Origin: Guyanagaster necrorhizus
Lineage: Eukaryota; Basidiomycota; Agaricomycetes; Agaricales; Physalacriaceae
Reading direction: 5' to 3'
Length of the DNA: 64,000 nucleotides
NCBI RefSeq assembly: GCF_019112545.1
Contig: NW_025064883.1
Coordinates: 1,795,919 to 1,859,918, forward strand
Shown: positions 18,981 through 58,847 of the stretch, one piece after another
Numbering within the stretch: position 1 is the stretch's first letter
Layout of the letters: every line of letters begins with the position of its first letter
Notes under the pieces: model-generated
Database searches by the model: none
What the model saw: only the letters and a program-made list of their open reading frames with translations
What the model was told of the DNA's origin: nothing
Position numbers and translations under genes: made by a program

Positions 18981-19188
18981 AGAGAGGAAGATTAGAGGTT
19001 ATGTTTCATAGAATTTCTCAGATATGTAGAAACTCATTGTAGTGTCTCAGGGCCCAGGTGGTAATAGAGTGATATCCTCGGCACAGCTGGATGATCATTA
19101 GAAGTCCTATCAATGTTTCAATGATGGAAGAGAGGAGTTCAAAGAACTTGTGGTCAAAATTCGGGTCAGTAGAGGTAGTGGGGGGCAT
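17800..19188 (-). pseudogene. ORF1 of A-2: short membrane-segment protein overlapping gag, decayed
   Basis: The ATG at 19186-19188 gives MPPTTSTDPNFDHKFFELL, followed by a hydrophobic stretch (IGLLMIIQLC). Later conserved blocks are the FPIWDF...PFNYDNAI region near 18520 and an open 74-codon block at 18155-18379 (INVGNWYRLCPDIATIL). Stops at three or more places include TGA for Arg. The ATG lies 208 nt upstream of the gag ATG, the same phase (+1) as in A-1, A'-1 and A-3. The left end is approximate. Confidence 0.65.
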
Positions 19189-43205: not shown

Positions 43206-43413
43206 ATAGGGGGAGGTCAGGGGTTACGTTTCATAGTATTTCACGGATACATAGGAATTCATTGTAATGTCTGAGGACTCAGGCGATGATTGAATAGCAT
43301 CCCTGGCACAGCTGGATGATCACCAACAATCCTATCAGTGTTCCAATGATGAAAGAGAGGAGTTCAAAGAACTCGTCATTGAAATTTGGGTTGATAGAGA
43401 TTGTGGGGGGCAT
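42100..43413 (-). pseudogene. ORF1 of A-3: membrane-segment protein overlapping gag
   Basis: The ATG at 43411-43413 gives MPPTISINPNFNDEFFELL and the hydrophobic IIGTLIGLLVIIQLC, with stops in the next 40 codons. A later block reads TWDLTILFNYDNAIRQ near 42740, closely matching DWDLTVPFDYDEAVRQ in A-1. The same nucleotides read in the gag frame are less similar, so this frame has been under protein-level constraint. The ATG is 208 nt upstream of the gag ATG. The left end is approximate. Confidence 0.68.
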
Positions 43414-50676: not shown

Positions 50677-51202
50677 TGTTACGATTTTCCCCTTTCCTTT
50701 TCCTTTTACTCCTATTTACGCTGAGCACAAGACCGCGGGAAGGGCTTAATAAGCACAACTGAGCCACCTAGATACAACGACGCTCACGCACAATGGTCCT
50801 TTTATGTACGACAACGATGCCCAANNNNNNNNNNNNNNNNNNNNNNNNNNNNNNNNNNNNNNNNNNNNNNNNNNNNNNNNNNNNNNNNNNNNNNNNNNNN
50901 NNNNNNNNNNNNNNNNNNNNNNNNNNNNNNNNNNNNNNNNNNNNNNNNNNNNNNNNNNNNNNNNNNNNNNNNNNNNNNNNNNNNNNNNNNNNNNNNNNNN
51001 NNNNNNNNNNNNNNNNNNNNNNNNNNNNNNNNNNNNNNNNNNNNNNNNNNNNNNNNNNNNNNNNTCTACTCTCGAGCCACTGCGTGGCCTTGTGACACAC
51101 CGAAACAGGACAACATCATTGTGGATTCGGGTGATCCCTCGAAGTGCGAAGGGACAGCCATCTATCACGTGTTGTCGGATCACGTGTCGCTTGGGCTTAA
51201 CA
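50677..51202 (+). repeat. 5' LTR of A-1 with assembly gap
   Basis: It runs from TGTTACGATTTTCCCC to GGGCTTAACA. The run of 240 N inside replaces what is 132 bp in the 3' LTR, so the real length should be 418 bp. TATA box and inferred transcript start fall inside the gap. Confidence 0.9.
50825..51064. other. Assembly gap (240 N)
   Basis: Unsequenced bases inside the 5' LTR. Alignment of both sides with the 3' LTR (58577/58710) predicts 132 missing bases, so the gap size is a placeholder. Open frames that run through it are meaningless. Confidence 0.97.
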
Positions 51203-51203
51203 A

Positions 51204-51216
51204 TTAGCTCGAAGCT
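51204..51216 (+). promoter_or_regulatory. Putative self-priming primer-binding site of A-1
   Basis: TTAGCTCGAAGCT begins one base after the LTR. It is the exact reverse complement of AGCTTCGAGCTAA at 58679-58691 in the 3' LTR, located 34 nt after TATTTAAG. In Tf1 the first 11 nt of the mRNA pair with the site next to the LTR and, after cleavage, prime cDNA synthesis. The layout here is the same with a 13-nt pairing. Confidence 0.6.
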
Positions 51217-51258
51217 TCCTCGTTCCCTTTCTCAAGCCCAATTGTGCTGAGAAACCGA

Positions 51259-52803
51259 ATGCCTCCAGTAACAACCGCAGAACTAAACCACGACTTCTTC
51301 GAGCTAATAGCTTCCATCATCGGAACATTGCTCGGTCTCTTAGCCATCATCACTCTTTGCCGCGGAAGACAGTCAGTAGCAGCTTGGATAGTCAGGCACT
51401 ATCAAGCCTTCCAGCAAATTCAACAAATTCTACGAAACGTAACCTCTGATCTCCCTTTCCATGACATCCCCCCCTCCGCCAGAACGTCCTTCTTCCCGCA
51501 AGGGGGACCCGTACCAGAAACCGGGAATAGCAACCCGGATTCGGGGAGCCTTCACGAGGAAGAAGGACCCCGACACCCCATTCGACGAGACGGCGGAGAC
51601 CGCCACCCTGCTCTCACAGGGTTCCGGAACCCGTGGACAACGAACATCGCTCAGGAGCCCGCCGAGGTCTCCAACTACGTCACTCCGGCCGTCTCCCCCG
51701 AGCATTCCGCCTCCCCAATTCCCTCAGGGGTTGGAAACCGTGCTCGGGACTCCCTTGATGCCGCTCGGATGGCTGCGGGACCCCGCGAAAGTCCCAACCC
51801 CCCCCAGAACCCCCCCGAAACCCCCACCGAGCCCAACTCCGGCTCCAGTCCGTCTGTCAGCAGGCTGGGGGTCGACAACCCGCGAGGAAGGGATATCCAT
51901 CCTGACTACGACAACGCGGACATCGCCATCTCGGCAGCAGGAGATCCCTATCGACATCTCCACGTCGGGAGCAAGCCCGAGGCCGAGACCGCTAGTGAAA
52001 GGGGAAGGGCGGCGACAAGAAGAATTATACACAGGATATTCCCAGATTGGGACCTTACCGTTCCCTTTGACTACGACGAAGCCGTACGGCAGCAGCAGCA
52101 GCAGAATCAGAACCGAGAGGAAGAGATCAGGTGAACCCAAGAGGAGCTCGCCGACTATGTCCGAGAAGAGGCCCGAGAACAGTACGAGGCCGCAGAGTAT
52201 GACAGGCAGGGAAGAGAACGAAGAAGAATGGAGGAAGTCGAAAGGATGGGGTCCGCCTCCCCTAGGGAGTATGAGCTCCGTACCGACGCCGGATCCCCTT
52301 TCAGGGAGCCCGACTCAGATAGCGATCCATGGACAGGGCCGGCCAGCATCGTCAGCTGGGACGAGGCAATCAGGCGAGGAAATGCCGAAAGACCCCGACC
52401 CGTCAGCCTCGAATATCCCGCCCGCACCGACACCATCTCCTCCGACGCTGATTCTGTCCTCGGAGCCTATGGGCTCCGAGTACCCGACAATGCCCACGTC
52501 CCCGACAGGGCTCTCCAGCGATTCCTGGGCAGCAGGGTCGCTCGACAGTTCCTTAATCCCAAGTTCCAGCGACTCTTCAGCGTCTATAGCCGAGAACTGG
52601 AGGAAACAAGAGCGCGCGGCGGGACACGCTACAGTCGGCTCAGAAGCCCTCCCATCGCTCGAACCAGTGACCGAGGGGATGACGGCCCAAGCACCCAAGT
52701 CAACAGAAGGGTCCCCGATGACCCTTCGACCAGCCGTGCCGTCCATCTTCGACCAGCCCGTCAGTTCCCTCCTCGAGGAAGGGGACAGCGGGAACGAGGG
52801 TGA
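51259..52803 (+). CDS. ORF1 of A-1: unrecognised membrane-anchored protein overlapping gag
   Basis: From ATG at 51259 to TGA at 52801-52803 there are 514 codons with one internal TGA (codon 292, at 52132). I do not recognise the protein. Near the N-terminus a hydrophobic segment (about residues 16-34, ELIASIIGTLLGLLAIITLC) looks like a membrane anchor, followed by a basic, amphipathic stretch. A Pro/Ser-rich middle follows, then a conserved block (RIFPDWDLTVPFDYDEAV, about 259-276), a short polyglutamine run and a charged helix-prone region (about 292-335). From 51461 onward it overlaps gag in another frame. The start, the hydrophobic segment and the FP-DWDLT block recur in A-2 and A-3, the first two also in A'-1. 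An envelope gene would lie 3' of pol, so env is unlikely. A link to gag by splicing or recoding is possible. Confidence 0.72.
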
Positions 52804-54508
52804 CGAGGAGGATGACGAGGACAGTGACGACCCATACAAACGACGACTAGAGCGAGCAGGAGAAGATACGGATGAAGAAGCATTGCGAGAGGAGATTGAA
52901 AGAGCCAGAAGCAGGGAATATCAGGAATTGTACGAGCAGGGGAGGAATTACTTATGGCAGGACGCGCGCTGGCAAGCGACGTCCTTAGGACTCGAATATA
53001 GGTATGCGGAAGGAACTGAAAAAGAAAAAATTCTACAGTATGCCGCGACGGAGTACGCATGGAAGGAATATGGGCGGCGGCATCCAGAGGACCCGCTCGT
53101 GCCGATACCCCCATATCGACCAAATAACAAGCCGAAGACACCGGCACCAATGCCGCGTACCCCCCCCGTTCCACCACAGCGAGCAGTCTTTATCGCCCCC
53201 TCTATCCGGAGTCAGGCCGAAGACAGCCCGTCGATCCGAAGCACGGCATCGCGACTCCTTCGAAACAGAACTCGACCGGCATGGCAGGCTGTCCAGACCC
53301 AAAATCCTTGGACCCGTCACGGAAGCCGGCTTCTCGGCGGACAGCCTCCCCCGGACCAAGCCGAATCAAGCAGGAAGGACCCCGTTCGGGACGACCCTGA
53401 GGCGGTTCACCTCGGATTTACGGTGCGAGACGGAGTGATTGTCCGAGTTGTCGAACCAAAAGGAAGTCCGGTTGCCGACGACAACTCCTTACACTCCTTC
53501 CCCGGACCACCTGCAGAATGGAAACAGCCACCGTTCGATGGCTGGCCCAACCCGATGGGCGCCCTCCCACAGAACGCCAACGTCTTACAATGTCACCCGG
53601 ATTTACTTCGGAAGCCCCGCCCCTTCAAGGGAGCTTCCGACGATATTGATCGATTCCTGGTTGACTGCGAACAGTACTTTGAAGTCTATATTGGGTATAT
53701 CGGCATAGACATGAACAAAGTTGCATTCGCCACCTCCTATCTGGAAGACAAGGCCAAAACGTGGTGGATCTTGATCTCCCCAAACTTTCGGTCCACCACT
53801 AGGGAGCACTACTGTTATCCCTCGTGGCCGGTGTTCAAGCGAATGCTAAACGACAAGTTCATTGACCCCGCCGTCCAGGAAGTACACAAGCAGAAAATCA
53901 AGGAATACAAGATGAGAGAAAAGGCGGCAACAGACTACTTTGACGAGCTAGAACGACTTGCGAAGCTCGCCGGAATCAGGGAGGACACTGCAAACGACGG
54001 AAGGATGGTGGAGGCACTCAAGCGAGGAGTCCCCTCCTCGTACCTTACGATGATCTCTGCCATGGGCATCAAAATGTTGATGCCGGTGGGATATGACGAA
54101 TGGAAGGAAAGGATCATCGAAATGTACAAGGAGCGACAAAGGCAGAAAGCGGAGGCAACGACATTGCAGGAATATTCCAAAAAGCCGACCCCGTCAACCC
54201 CGAACAAGCCGGGGCAAACTGCCGGAAAAACATCGGGCTCCTCGAACTCCACACCATCATACAGCGCGCAAAAGACCAGGACCGGCACAACTTACACCGG
54301 GGCCGGAAAGCCAATGGACATCGATCGAATGAAGAAGGAAGGGAAGTGCTTTAATTGTGGGCAGAAGGGGCATATAGTGAAGGACTGTCCAAAGAAGAAG
54401 CGAACCCGAGAAGACATACGGGCGCAGATCGCCGAACTTCAGAAGGAAGAAGAAGATCTTAGGAAGGAGACCAAAATCGAGGAGGTAAAAGGCGAGGCCA
54501 GCCAGTGA
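51461..54508 (+). CDS. Gag of A-1 (1,015 residues)
   Basis: The frame is open from ATG 51461 to TGA 54506-54508. The first 440 residues are Pro/Ser/Arg-rich and low in complexity; an acidic run (DEEDDEDSDD) follows at about 445-455. The retrotransposon capsid-like domain lies at about 720-895 (FKGASDDIDRFLVDCEQYF, then YLEDKAKTWWILISPNF), and one CCHC knuckle has C963, C966, H971 and C976. It should assemble the particle and bind RNA. Twice the usual chromovirus Gag length, it owes the excess to the part overlapping ORF1. Use of this ATG is supported because A-2, A-3 and A'-1 start at the same place (MTSL...). No stop occurs in the whole frame, although ORF1 and pol have some. Alternative downstream starts, for example Met near 52679, cannot be excluded. 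Confidence 0.85.
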   Translation: MTSPPPPERPSSRKGDPYQKPGIATRIRGAFTRKKDPDTPFDETAETATLLSQGSGTRGQRTSLRSPPRSPTTSLRPSPPSIPPPQFPQGLETVLGTPLMPLGWLRDPAKVPTPPRTPPKPPPSPTPAPVRLSAGWGSTTREEGISILTTTTRTSPSRQQEIPIDISTSGASPRPRPLVKGEGRRQEELYTGYSQIGTLPFPLTTTKPYGSSSSRIRTERKRSGEPKRSSPTMSEKRPENSTRPQSMTGREENEEEWRKSKGWGPPPLGSMSSVPTPDPLSGSPTQIAIHGQGRPASSAGTRQSGEEMPKDPDPSASNIPPAPTPSPPTLILSSEPMGSEYPTMPTSPTGLSSDSWAAGSLDSSLIPSSSDSSASIAENWRKQERAAGHATVGSEALPSLEPVTEGMTAQAPKSTEGSPMTLRPAVPSIFDQPVSSLLEEGDSGNEGDEEDDEDSDDPYKRRLERAGEDTDEEALREEIERARSREYQELYEQGRNYLWQDARWQATSLGLEYRYAEGTEKEKILQYAATEYAWKEYGRRHPEDPLVPIPPYRPNNKPKTPAPMPRTPPVPPQRAVFIAPSIRSQAEDSPSIRSTASRLLRNRTRPAWQAVQTQNPWTRHGSRLLGGQPPPDQAESSRKDPVRDDPEAVHLGFTVRDGVIVRVVEPKGSPVADDNSLHSFPGPPAEWKQPPFDGWPNPMGALPQNANVLQCHPDLLRKPRPFKGASDDIDRFLVDCEQYFEVYIGYIGIDMNKVAFATSYLEDKAKTWWILISPNFRSTTREHYCYPSWPVFKRMLNDKFIDPAVQEVHKQKIKEYKMREKAATDYFDELERLAKLAGIREDTANDGRMVEALKRGVPSSYLTMISAMGIKMLMPVGYDEWKERIIEMYKERQRQKAEATTLQEYSKKPTPSTPNKPGQTAGKTSGSSNSTPSYSAQKTRTGTTYTGAGKPMDIDRMKKEGKCFNCGQKGHIVKDCPKKKRTREDIRAQIAELQKEEEDLRKETKIEEVKGEASQ

Positions 54509-57500
54509 GCGATTCCACTGGACTGGCCAAAGGACTTAATGGTGTGTCAGCAACAGCCGCTAGTCAGACTGATAGTACCCCTGTAGCTACAAACATGTCT
54601 ACTACGCATTCGAATATACCCAGAACGTCTGGAAAACACACCATTGAATCGCAAAAAAGAACTCAAACGCCCACGGGCCGAACAGGGACAGAGGGTCCCA
54701 CCACATGGCTCAAACCGTTCGACACCGAGTGGACATGGAGGGCCATTAAAAACGCAAAGGACGAAGCCACGGCGATAGCCGTACTTCGAAATTGGATTCA
54801 TCGGACCAGAGCCGAAGAAGTGGTAGATGACCTGATCGAGGGGATCAGGAAAGCCGAACGCTATCGAGCCCTCGAATGGCTGGACGAACTCCGAGGGCCC
54901 AAGAAATACATCTTATGAGCAAAAACCCCTGGACGGGATCTGACCACGAAGGGACAGATCGAAGTATTAACCACCCGCGACATGCATCAAGTGACCGCCC
55001 TAATCGACAGTGGCTGTACAGGAAGCTCGATTAACCGAGCCTTCGTCGAGAAGCACCATCTGCCCACGAGGGCAACAGCCGCACTGATACCAGTCTACAA
55101 TGCTGATGGAACAAAGAACCAGGCCGGTTCCATCACAGAGTTCGTCGAACTCAGGTTGACCATCAGAGATCACTCCGAACGGATCGACTTGGCAGTAACC
55201 GACCTTGGCACCAAAGAACTCTTCCTCGGTCACGACTGGCTGATCCGCCACAACCCGCTAATCAATTGGAAGACCGGCCGAATCACCTTTGCCAGATGCA
55301 GATGCAGGAAGATCCTGTTTGAGTTACCAGACGAGGATCCGGAGGATCAGTGGGACGAGGAAATGGAGGATGGGGAGACGATACTTGCAGTGGATCTCCA
55401 GAAAGAGATCCACATACGAGCCATTCACCATGCAAACAACATGGCCGCCAAGGCAAATCAGAGAAAGGATGAGAAGACGTTTGAAGAGATGGTGCCCGAA
55501 TGGGCACAAGACTACAGGGACCTCTTTGAGAAGGAGAGTTTCGACGAGTTACCTCCCTCAAAGCCCTGGGACCACGCTATCGAGCTAATCCCTAATGCCA
55601 ACGCCAACCTGGACTGTAAAACCTATCCACTTGGCCACCACGAGCAACAGGAACTTGACAAGTTCCTGGAAGAGAACCTGTCCACCGGCAGGATCCGCCC
55701 TTCGAAATCCCCCATGGCCTCTCCTTTCTTTTTCGTCAAGAAAAAGGATGGGAAGCTTCGACCCGTCCAGGACTATCGAAAGCTCAACGAGATGACCATT
55801 AAAAACCGGTACCCATTACCTTTAATCTCAGAGCTAATGGACAAACTTCGGGGCGCCAAATACTACACCAAACTCGATGTACGATGGGGATATAATAATG
55901 TCCGGATCAAAGAAGGGGACGAATGGAAGGCCGCCTTCCGTATGAACTGGGGACTGTTCGAACCAACAGTAATGTTCTTCAGACTCACAAATTCCCCTGC
56001 TACCTTTCAGTGGATGATGAACGACATCTTCAAAGACCTCATCTCCACCGGGAAGGTAACAATTTATCTCGATGACATCTTAATCATGTCAAAAACGAAA
56101 ACAGAGCACCGAGAATTAGTACGGAAGGTACTAGCTCTGATGAGGAAGCACAAATTGTTCCTCAAGGCAGAGAAGTGCGAGTTCGAGGTGGTAGAAATGG
56201 AGTACCTTGGCGTGATCATCAGCGAAGGGAGCATACGAATGGACCTGGTAAAAGTGGCAGGGGTCGCCGAGTGGCCGGAGCCCGCCAAGAAAAAGGAATT
56301 ACAATCATTCCTTGGCTTCACAAACTTTTATCGACGGTTCATCCACGACTACAGCAAAATTGTCCGCCCAATGACACAGCTGACAGGCAATGCTCCCTGG
56401 CAATGGGGACTCTCTCAACAAAATGCCTTCCATGATCTTAAACGATGACTGGCGGAAGACGTGGTACTAGCCGTGCCCACCCAAGAAGGAAGGTTCCGAG
56501 TGGAAGCCGACTCCAGTGAAGGAGCCATAGGAGCTGTCCTGTCCCAAGAACAGGACGGGAGATGGCGACCCGTCGCGTTCCTCTCCAAAGCCTTAACCGC
56601 AACCGAGCGGAACTATGAGATCTATGACAAGGAGTTGCTCGCTATCATGCTCGCTCTCGAAGAGTGGCGACATTACCTCATCGGCGCCGAAGAAATATTC
56701 GAAGTCTGGACAGATCACCAGAACCTACGTTATTTCCGACAACCACAGAAACTCAACCGGCGACAAGCACGTTGGGTGACAGAGCTCAGCCAATATCAGT
56801 ACACCCTGCATCATAAGGCAGGAACAGCCAACAAGAAGGCCGACTTGTTAAGCCGACGAGCAGACCACGATCAAGGAGGAACGGATAACGAGGGAGTAAC
56901 ACTGCTAAGGCCGGAACATTTCCGAGCCATGATAATGCTGACAGAGGAGGAAATCCACGAATGGATCAAAAGTGCGACACGAGATAATCACAAATGAGAC
57001 CAAAGGGTGGCTCCTTCGCTGAACCATGAACGAGGGATGACAAAGAAAGATGGACTAATCCACTATGATGAACGCATCTACGTTCCCCGGGACCACCAAC
57101 TACGCGGCGAAATTATCGCCACCTGTCATGATCACATAACGGCAGGACACCCAGGCATCGCCAAAACCAAGGAGCTCGTCCTCCGAGAGTACTGGTGGCC
57201 GAAACTGGGGAACGACATAACGGCATACATAAGAGCCTGCGAAGCCTGCCAACGGGGGAAATCTTCCACACAGGCTCGAGCAGCGCTGCTACATCCCAAC
57301 GAAGTACCGTCGGCCCCTTGGACACATATTTCGGTCGATATGATCACTGGTCTACCTGAGTGTAATGGGTACGACGCAATCCTCGTCATAGTGGACCGAT
57401 TCTCCAAGGCAATCATCCCAATCCCGTGTTCCACGGAACTAAACTCCGAGGGGTGGGCCAAGATCCTCCGAGACAAAGTATACGCCAAGCACAGAATGCC

Positions 57501-58395
57501 CCAAACTATTATTTCAGATAGGGGCCCTCAATTCGTCTCAAAATTCATAACTGACCTATACCGCATCCTAAACATTAAACAGAACGCGTCGACCACCTAC
57601 CACCCACAAACAGACGGGCAGACCGAACGCGTAAATCAAAAAATCGAAAAATATTTATGACTTTTCATCAATTATCGACAAGATGATTGGACTGAATGGC
57701 TCGCTCTTGCAGCCTTTCAACATAACAACCGGATACATTCCGCGACGGGAAAAACACCATTCTTCGTGAACCATGGATATCATCCACATGTCACACAAAC
57801 AAATCGCCTTCGAACCACAACACCCGCTTCATCTAACTTTGCAGCCGACATGGAAAGGATTCACAACAAGACAAAGGCAGCACTGGAAAAGGCCGCAGGA
57901 TCAATGAAAAGAAACTACGACAAACATCGACGGCCCAGTTGTGTATACCAACCAAACGACAAAGTTTGGTTGGATACAACAAACCTCCACCTACCACGTC
58001 CCAAAAAGAAACTTGACGACAAACACACAGGACCGTTCACGGTCATCAAAGCCATCGGACCAAGCGCATATAAGCTACGCTTACCTCCCACCTGGAAAAT
58101 TCACGACGTCTTCAACGAAACCCTATTAAACCCGTATATAACACCAGCATTCCCTAACCAGGAACGACCACCTCCCCCACCGCCTGACTTGATTGACAAC
58201 GAAGAACACTTCGAAGTTGACCAAGTCCTAAATCACAAACTCCGGCGTGTCAAAGTGAAGGGGGGCGGGACGACAACGACGGTCGACTACCTGGTCAGCT
58301 GGAAGGGTTACGGACCAGAATCTAACCAGTGGGTTAACGAAAAATACATGAACGCGGACACAGCCATACATGATTACGAACTTTCCCTTAATTAA
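54505..58395 (+). pseudogene. Pol of A-1: protease, RT, RNase H, integrase, chromodomain; four TGA codons
   Basis: The frame runs from GTG 54505 (overlapping the gag TGA) to TAA 58393-58395, 1,297 codons, and is open upstream only to 54463. TGA codons lie at 54916, 56446, 56995 and 57658; by comparison with other copies they replace Arg or Trp. Domains: aspartic protease DSGCTGSS (Asp168), RT with YLDD (521-524), RNase H (about 653-790), integrase HHCC module (about 876-920), D945, D1005, E1041 (D-D-35-E), GPF module (about 1175) and chromodomain (DYLVSWKGYGPESNQWV, about 1250-1280). It makes cDNA and integrates it. As written the protein would be cut short, so A-1 may depend on other copies, unless these are sequencing or heterozygous differences. 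Confidence 0.93.
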
Positions 58396-58414
58396 ACCAT
58401 CGGGACGATGGTCT

Positions 58415-58429
58415 TAAACGAGGGGGTAA
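58415..58429 (+). promoter_or_regulatory. Polypurine tract of A-1
   Basis: AAACGAGGGGGTAA ends directly at the 3' LTR. This is the position where plus-strand DNA synthesis is primed. The decayed copies keep TTACCCCCTCC in reverse. Confidence 0.7.
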
Positions 58430-58847
58430 TGTTACGATTTTCCCCTTTCCTTTTCCTTTTACTCCTATTTACGCTGAGCACGAGACCGCGGGAAGGGCTT
58501 AATAAGCACAACTGAGCCACCTAGATACAACGACGCTCACGCACAATGGTCCTTTTATGTACGACAACGATGCCCAAAGACAACGGGCACCATGGACACA
58601 GACCGACACAATAAGTAGTCATATTATTAGCACCACCTGTATAGTATTTAAGACTGGTGGCTCTTGCTGGTATACCCCAGCTTCGAGCTAAAGTTTATAT
58701 TCATACCATTCTACTCTCGAGCCACTGCGTGGCCTTGTGACACACCGAAACAGGACAACATCATTGTGGATTCGGGTGATCCCTCGAAGTGCGAAGGGAC
58801 AGCCGTCTATCACATGTTGTCGGATCACGTGTCGCTTGGGCTTAACA
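58430..58847 (+). repeat. 3' LTR of A-1 (418 bp)
   Basis: It starts TGTTACGATTTTCCCC and ends GGGCTTAACA, followed by the TACTG duplication. TATTTAAG at 58645-58652 is a likely TATA box and AGCTTCGAGCTAA at 58679-58691 the inferred start of the transcript. Confidence 0.95.
58645..58691 (+). promoter_or_regulatory. LTR promoter and inferred transcript 5' end (family A)
   Basis: TATTTAAG lies 34 nt before AGCTTCGAGCTAA, whose complement is the primer-binding site. If transcription starts at the A of this motif, the RNA 5' end can fold onto the site behind the LTR. Confidence 0.55.

Follow-up and report, generated by a model that had tools for sequence, protein, structure and literature searches.

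A probable accessory membrane protein gene lying across the start of gag in a chromovirus of Guyanagaster necrorhizus

In the usual description, a long terminal repeat (LTR) retrotransposon consists of gag and pol, and any envelope-like gene lies at its 3' end. Can such an element also carry a gene which starts upstream of gag and then runs far into it in another reading frame? This question is raised by a 64,000-nucleotide stretch of the Guyanagaster necrorhizus genome (assembly GCF_019112545.1, contig NW_025064883.1, positions 1,795,919 to 1,859,918, forward strand), hereafter the window, in which a Ty3/gypsy chromovirus at 50677-58847 (window coordinates throughout) opens with a long reading frame, ORF1, lying across the gag start. 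Judged from the sequence, ORF1 is probably a genuine accessory membrane protein gene of a fungal chromovirus, translated from the first AUG, with Gag being reached by leaky scanning. That the second gene hidden across the gag start is a real gene is very likely, because relatives of the element in Armillaria seem to have the same arrangement. The arrangement exceeds chance, since ORF1 has 134 scored matches in the genome, its codon-position pattern reaches a permutation P < 0.0001 and the same frame relation recurs in Armillaria proteins.

ORF1 (51259-52803, + strand) starts 56 nt downstream of the 5' LTR and shares 1.34 kb with gag (51461-54508, + strand), a frame of 1015 codons in the +1 frame relative to ORF1, with Retrotrans_gag at residues 756-854 and a zinc knuckle at residues 961-978. 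A first-pass annotation of the window, made from the letters alone, had placed the ORF1 ATG at 51259, upstream of gag and overlapping it out of frame, and this was borne out, gag being open from 51461 to 54508. The hydrophobic segment it had described at residues 16-34 (51304-51360, + strand, before the gag overlap) was recovered as the top Kyte-Doolittle 19-residue window (2.55, from residue 16) in all three copies tested; it is predicted as a single membrane segment from hydropathy and a low-confidence AlphaFold helix at residues 6-34. Likewise, the distances from the ORF1 to the gag start in the four window copies were reproduced: 202 nt (51259, + strand), 208 nt (43413, - strand), 208 nt (19188, - strand) and 211 nt (24692, - strand), all equal to 1 modulo 3. 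What did not hold was ORF1 as a single open frame in the copy at 51259, which is interrupted by a TGA at 52132-52134 after 291 codons, the same frame reopening to 52803. Two further statements had to be amended. The 320 open gag codons claimed for a copy called A-3 fit the copy at 43413 (329 gag-frame codons from codon 78) but not the one at 19188, where the nominal gag frame contains 34 stops in the first 1560 nt, not corrected for indels. The block given as PFNYDNAI for A-1, A-2 and A-3 reads PFDYDEAV in A-1, and LFNYDNAI and PFNYDNAI in the other two.

The genome (53.3 Mb, 109 contigs) was searched for copies. Group A1 consists of the 30 best of the 134 matches, ranked by similarity to ORF1 codons 1-291, and group A2/A3 of 30 of 40 DNA-similarity matches, which are heavily decayed, with 11-31 nominal ORF1-frame stops each. 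Nine of the 30 A1 copies run from the ORF1 ATG to a stop after 503-524 codons. Among the 29 A1 copies without N, eight lack ORF1-frame stops to offset 1536 (offsets are counted from the ORF1 start), six of them being open in the gag frame as well, and one further copy ends at a contig end. The A2/A3 copies (L031-L060) carry many stops, apparently through C-to-T decay; over offsets 210-1500, the frames of ORF1 and gag and the third frame accumulate 535, 206 and 764 nominal stops, respectively, not corrected for indels.

In this frame relation, gag codon position 3 coincides with ORF1 codon position 1, and the freest codon position along the A1 copies is first ORF1's, then gag's, then both alike, then again ORF1's and finally gag's. 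In the 202 nt before gag, A1 diversity (n = 30) at ORF1 positions 1/2/3 is.046/.014/.263 (permutation P < 0.0001). It amounts to.104/.052/.062 at offsets 210-420, with gag position 3 highest, to.100/.043/.113 at 420-600 and to.093/.071/.277 at 600-1536 (P < 0.0001), before a sharp switch at the ORF1 end leads to.299/.109/.102 in the gag-only part at 1566-2100, where gag position 3 is highest (P < 0.0001). In the A2/A3 copies, using transversions only, the ORF1 pattern is found before gag (P < 0.0001) and at 600-1536 (P 0.0011), and the gag pattern at 210-420 (P 0.041), 420-600 (P 0.035) and 1566-2100 (P < 0.0001).

For 15 of the 30 A1 copies, picked as less broken, each change was sorted by what it does to ORF1 and to gag, NN/SN being the ORF1 ratio, which uses only changes nonsynonymous in gag, and NN/NS the gag ratio. 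For ORF1, NN/SN is 0.08 in the ORF1-only part, 0.67 at 225-405, 0.25 at 405-600 and 0.18 at 651-1536 (0.07, 1.65, 0.17 and 0.21 with transversions only). For gag, NN/NS in the three successive overlap segments is 0.44, 0.32 and 0.83, and it falls to 0.17 in the downstream part (transversions only: 0.48, 0.32, 1.19 and 0.15). Based on these ratios, the overlap is unequally dual-coding: gag dominates the first ~200 nt, the next ~200 nt are constrained in both frames, and ORF1 alone is constrained in the last ~900 nt. In window coordinates, the first part (offsets 202-600) corresponds to 51461-51858 (+ strand), gag-dominated to about offset 400 and constrained in both frames thereafter, and the ORF1-dominated part to 51859-52803 (+ strand), where the gag frame is open with its amino acids nearly unconstrained. 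At 405-600, with ratios of 0.25 and 0.32, ORF1 and gag are an overlapping gene pair under purifying selection in both frames.

Neutral evolution of the ORF1 frame had been set beforehand as a refuting test; the test was run, and the ORF1 ratios of 0.08 and 0.18 speak against neutrality. Stop-poor DNA does give chance open frames, and the window copy itself has an ORF1 stop, yet both ratios contradict a mere chance frame over gag, as do the ORF1 third positions, which are the most variable ones both upstream of gag and in the last 936 nt of the overlap, so that this explanation is hardly credible. A different concern is that diversity is low over the first ~400 nt of the overlap, which might reflect an RNA element such as a packaging or dimerisation signal instead of dual coding. 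Every codon position is conserved there, and the 5' part of gag often houses packaging signals in other elements. Nevertheless, gag-silent changes are 2-3 times as frequent as changes affecting both proteins (NN/NS 0.44 and 0.32), and gag position 3 is the most variable one at 210-420 (A1 P 0.009, A2/A3 P 0.006; transversions only 0.13 and 0.041), which makes an RNA element in place of coding improbable; the two kinds of constraint may coexist in this part.

The gag frame is moreover kept free of stops. Its stops number 98 per 1000 codons ahead of the gag ATG and 1.2-2.2 after it, with 29-50 in the third frame of the overlap; at offsets 650-1545, the values are 1.2-1.7 for the gag frame, 39-50 for the third frame and 4.1-4.8 for the ORF1 frame. 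When ORF1 synonymous codons at offsets 204-1536 were resampled in 6 of the 30 A1 copies, 4.3-7.2 gag-frame stops were expected, depending on copy and codon-usage table, and none was observed in any of the six (P 0.0001-0.009 per copy and table). The null is imperfect, as seen from the third frame of these copies, which has 13-20 stops against 19-24 expected (P < 0.05 for some combinations of copy and table). Where a four-fold codon with middle T stands before A, its third base is A or G at a rate of 1.8% over 651-1536, compared to 63% in the ORF1-only part, and the harmless counterpart of such stop-creating codon ends, G before G, reaches 30%. The gag frame lacks the expected stops even though its amino acids drift, which is most simply explained by ribosomes translating gag from 51461 onwards across the overlap.

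A similar arrangement seems to exist in Armillaria. With the N-terminal part of an Armillaria Gag gene model as query, 27 proteins were retrieved, 18 of them with an N-terminal hydrophobic segment; the named sources are A. ostoyae, A. borealis and A. solidipes. Stand-alone ORF1 models of 371-397 residues are P0018, P0024 and P0032-P0035. Read in the +1 frame, ORF1 P0015 is compatible with gag model P0041 at 164 of 177 residues (score 247), and ORF1 P0018 with P0006 at 116 of 123 (score 234) and with P0003 at 95 of 110 (score 173). The +2 readings for P0041, P0006 and P0003 score 51, 18 and 16, and shuffled controls of the +1 readings stay below 19 in eight shuffles each. In P0040, compatibility changes from +1 to +2 along the sequence, which would be expected if the gene model switches frames. 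Taken together, the compared models follow the +1 overlap from about codon 45 to codon 381 of ORF1. Gag would begin within codon 45, at a distance of 133 nt from the ORF1 start codon, which once more equals 1 modulo 3; in P0040, the surrounding residues I-D-M-A imply a favourable initiation context, with G at both -3 and +4. Drawn from proteins of related copies, these comparisons imply that the Armillaria elements share the +1 ORF1/gag overlap over more than 300 codons. That the two ORF1 sets have a common origin is suggested by their matching position, topology and frame relation within elements whose Gag proteins are related, the protein search having given 14 Gag relatives, all from Armillaria ostoyae, with ~40% identity at best. 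As a side observation, the models P0001, P0002, P0004, P0006, P0007 and P0040 cross from the ORF1 to the gag frame, apparently via predicted introns, and such frame-crossing 'uncharacterized proteins' may partly be gene-prediction artefacts.

The data can also be read such that ORF1 alone is translated in the overlap, Gag starting from an internal AUG near or after the ORF1 end and the open gag frame being a by-product of composition. Gag amino acids nearly unconstrained at 651-1536 (NN/NS 0.83) would fit this, as would site-level stop avoidance of only borderline significance (P 0.055) and the Armillaria gag models P0003, which starts at ORF1 codon 272, and P0005, which starts further down. 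An internal start is nevertheless unlikely: gag-type codon periodicity follows the gag ATG in both copy groups, gag stops are depleted relative to synonymous resampling, the +1 frame is open over a long distance in Armillaria, and the ORF1 His codon holding the gag ATG is CAT in all 30 A1 copies, the remaining ORF1 His codons being CAC (279) or CAT (130).

Under the favoured reading, with both proteins made across the overlap, one unspliced RNA would yield ORF1 and Gag via leaky scanning. The full-length RNA is presumed to begin near the self-primer sequence, ~217 nt upstream of ORF1, and the leader counted from this start measures 214-225 nt in the 22 of 30 A1 copies in which it is readable, with no ATG in 11 of them, one in nine and two in two. 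Ribosomes would then either initiate at the first AUG, that of ORF1, in a poor context (C at -3 in 27 of 30 copies and T in three; C at +4), or scan on to the gag AUG 202 nt downstream.

Alternatively, ORF1 might be a leader exon, or be joined to Gag by splicing or frameshifting near its end, the membrane segment then forming the N-terminus of a Gag variant. Five Armillaria models (P0001, P0002, P0004, P0006, P0007) do have an ORF1-like start running into gag, and the ORF1 end adjoins the onset of gag constraint in the window species. Yet the joined models leave the ORF1 frame at differing places and stand-alone ORF1 models exist (P0018, P0032, P0035), while in the window species the constraint on ORF1 extends up to the end, and the nine copies open that far all have their stop after 503-524 codons. 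Constraint on ORF1 both before gag and up to the ORF1 end, together with the scarcity of gag-frame stops across the overlap, makes a spliced leader exon the less likely arrangement, and joining of either kind appears quite improbable.

Several observations weigh against the favoured reading. The ranking behind group A1 selects for a conserved ORF1, although neither group A2/A3 nor any offset past 873 was subject to it. ORF1 constraint is weak at 225-405 (NN/SN 0.67; transversions 1.65), and gag amino acids are little constrained past offset ~600 (NN/NS 0.83; transversions 1.19). With transversions only, the gag signal of A1 at 210-420 loses its significance (P 0.13), offsets 420-600 favour ORF1 position 3 in A1 (P 0.032) but gag in A2/A3, and A2/A3 at 600-1536 shows a slight excess at gag position 3 when all changes are used (P 0.044). 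At offsets 650-1545, ORF1-frame stops are commoner than gag-frame stops, which is read as decay of dead copies. The per-copy tests of stop depletion are interdependent because the copies are related, and the site-level permutation of stop avoidance is borderline at 651-1536 (P 0.055, 28 sites) and gives P 0.20 (10 sites) in the first overlap part. The gag AUG context is also poor (T at -3, A at +4), and the interval between the two start codons is not significantly poor in ATGs: none occurs there in 20 of 30 copies, and resampling of four copies left none in 15-33% of cases. Between the genera, profile comparison of window and Armillaria ORF1 gave no significant homology (probability 4%). N-terminal ORF1 alignments are suggestive at most, in four of five pairs for copy L026, each beating at least 498 of 500 shuffles, and in one of five for L040 (497 of 500), shuffling of a membrane segment being a lenient null. 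ORF1 C-terminal parts (17, 311, 50 and 416 of 500 shuffles as good in four pairs) and Gag N-terminal parts (161, 237, 336 and 35 of 500, four pairs) show no clear similarity between the genera.

The predicted ORF1 product of ~515 residues opens with a short tail and a single predicted membrane helix, and also contains a long Pro-rich part and a charged helix. Basic residues directly follow the membrane segment and, as the basic flank of such a segment faces the cytosol according to the positive-inside rule, the long part of ORF1 is predicted to be cytosolic. AlphaFold models are poor (mean pLDDT 38 for window and 47 for Armillaria ORF1), the better parts being the charged helix at ~271-327 of the former and an N-terminal helix at 5-44 of the latter (block pLDDT 60-86). 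Two window ORF1 pieces had no Pfam match at E <= 1; at E 0.1, one of two intact copies was without match and the other gave a sub-threshold PF05262. ORF1 had no sequence match in the Protein Data Bank (PDB) at E <= 1, the protein database held no homologue of window ORF1 at E <= 0.001 among 7996 scored candidates, and no match was confirmed among viral contigs when these were searched with an Armillaria Gag model. An envelope gene was rejected as identity, ORF1 being located 5' of and inside gag, not 3' of pol, with no Pfam match above threshold. A FAST- or sORF2-like fusogen was rejected likewise: in spite of the N-terminal membrane segment, ORF1 far exceeds the under ~200 residues of such proteins and starts with MPPVTT, not with MGxxxS/T. 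A PPxY motif occurs in 25 of 27 Armillaria-type proteins versus none of five window-species ORF1 copies examined.

Products of this kind have counterparts elsewhere. In gammaretroviruses, an upstream start adds a membrane-spanning product, Glyco-Gag, to the gag region, as ORF1 may do here; Glyco-Gag is in frame with gag, whereas ORF1 is out of frame and separate. In the plant element Ogre, an ORF1 lies before gag. Ogre and related plant Ty3/gypsy lineages resemble the present element in having extra ORFs of unknown function, but they are non-chromovirus lineages, and the available parts of the sources mention neither gag overlap nor membrane segment (PMC6317226, PMC6431247). Retrosat2 has an additional reading frame, ORF0, ahead of its gag-pol ORF; it evolves fast and is family-specific, like ORF1, although it belongs to a plant element and no gag overlap is mentioned in the text at hand (PMC3485330). 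Another near precedent in the excerpts available is sORF2 of insect MDG1-group Metaviridae, an accessory gene upstream of gag on the full-length RNA with low nonsynonymous/synonymous rates; like ORF1, it has a single membrane segment in an element without envelope gene, and the likeness of its N-terminal ectodomain and cytoplasmic tail to ORF1 rests on predicted topology (PMC11952523). According to the same excerpts, sORF2-like proteins have 63-107 residues, an ectodomain of ~30 and often a myristoylation motif; ORF1 differs in its ~515 residues, its 1.34 kb inside gag, its shorter N-terminal tail and its host element, a fungal chromovirus (PMC11952523). Hence, upstream-of-gag ORFs are known in plant and insect LTR elements, and in the portions of these sources available they are not described as lying inside gag. 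A literature search judged mostly by titles and beginnings of abstracts recognised no out-of-frame gene overlapping gag in a chromovirus.

By its topology, the Armillaria PPxY motif and the insect sORF2 precedent, as far as the latter is described in the excerpts (PMC11952523), ORF1 is guessed to serve Gag particles or host trafficking as membrane anchor or adaptor, its long C-terminal part perhaps being held in the cytosol; in Armillaria, an Rsp5/Nedd4 ubiquitin ligase might be recruited through the PPxY motif. Only tentatively can this be extended to a mushroom chromovirus lineage whose gag-overlapping membrane adaptor gene lets particles use host membranes, for instance by Rsp5 ubiquitin ligase recruitment or in passage between hyphae or nuclei without an envelope. 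If true, this would be, as far as the literature searched shows, the first case of an LTR retrotransposon with a long overlapping accessory gene, and membrane accessory proteins upstream of gag would have arisen independently of the insect ones. More generally, a selected out-of-frame gene of ~515 codons, apparently present in two fungal lineages, suggests that LTR elements can carry retrovirus-style accessory genes. Public gene models seem to misread ORF1, either by frame switching or by labelling it a host 'uncharacterized protein', and 134 scored matches in one genome offer a well-replicated case for overprinting studies.

The host element is a Ty3/gypsy chromovirus, with zinc-knuckle gag, protease, reverse transcriptase, C-terminal chromodomain and LTRs all present. 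Profile matches are PF03732, PF00098, PF08284, PF00078, PF24626 and PF00385, the last of which, the chromodomain (E 8.2e-8), confirms the chromovirus identity assigned in the first pass. The protease-reverse transcriptase ORF lies at 54982-56448 (+ strand; PF08284, PF00078) and the end of the integrase region, with Tf2-1-like SH3 and chromodomain, at 57850-58395 (+ strand; PF24626, PF00385). The 5' LTR (50677-51202, + strand; TGTTACG...TTAACA, partly N) forms a direct repeat with the 3' LTR (58430-58847, + strand), and the near-identity of their readable parts (147/148 and 136/138) suggests a young insertion.

Self-priming is a mechanism of Tf1 origin. Directly after the 5' LTR, 12 nt at 51203-51214 (+ strand), ATTAGCTCGAAG, form a presumed self-primer binding site, whose complement CTTCGAGCTAA lies inside the LTR at 58681; the 3' LTR carries the presumed RNA 5'-end sequence CTTCGAGCTAAA at 58681-58692. 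The pair recurs with at most two mismatches in the other three window copies (43457/43620, 19232/19392 and 24737/24901), and a sequence resembling the primer binding site is found in 28 of 30 A1 and 29 of 30 A2/A3 copies. This complementarity, common to the four window copies, points to self-priming and, with the RNA 5' end presumed, would fit a Tf1/Sushi-like fungal chromovirus. Tf1/Sushi and Tcn1-like fungal chromoviruses share the chromodomain with the present element, and self-priming, presumed here, is a known mechanism among them, although it was not found for SM-Tcn1, and, in contrast to the situation here, the available part of the source mentions no extra ORF upstream of gag (PMC2864245). 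An exact self-primer 12-mer inside ORF1 (51297-51308) was rejected as a functional element, being kept in only 6 of 30 copies and probably due to chance. Between gag and protease, a 107-codon ORF at 54595-54918 gave a weak Death-domain match (PF00531, E 0.0025, below cut-off), and Armillaria polyproteins have, judged by eye, a similar-looking segment (WYKPFEVDWTLRAV...) ahead of the protease.
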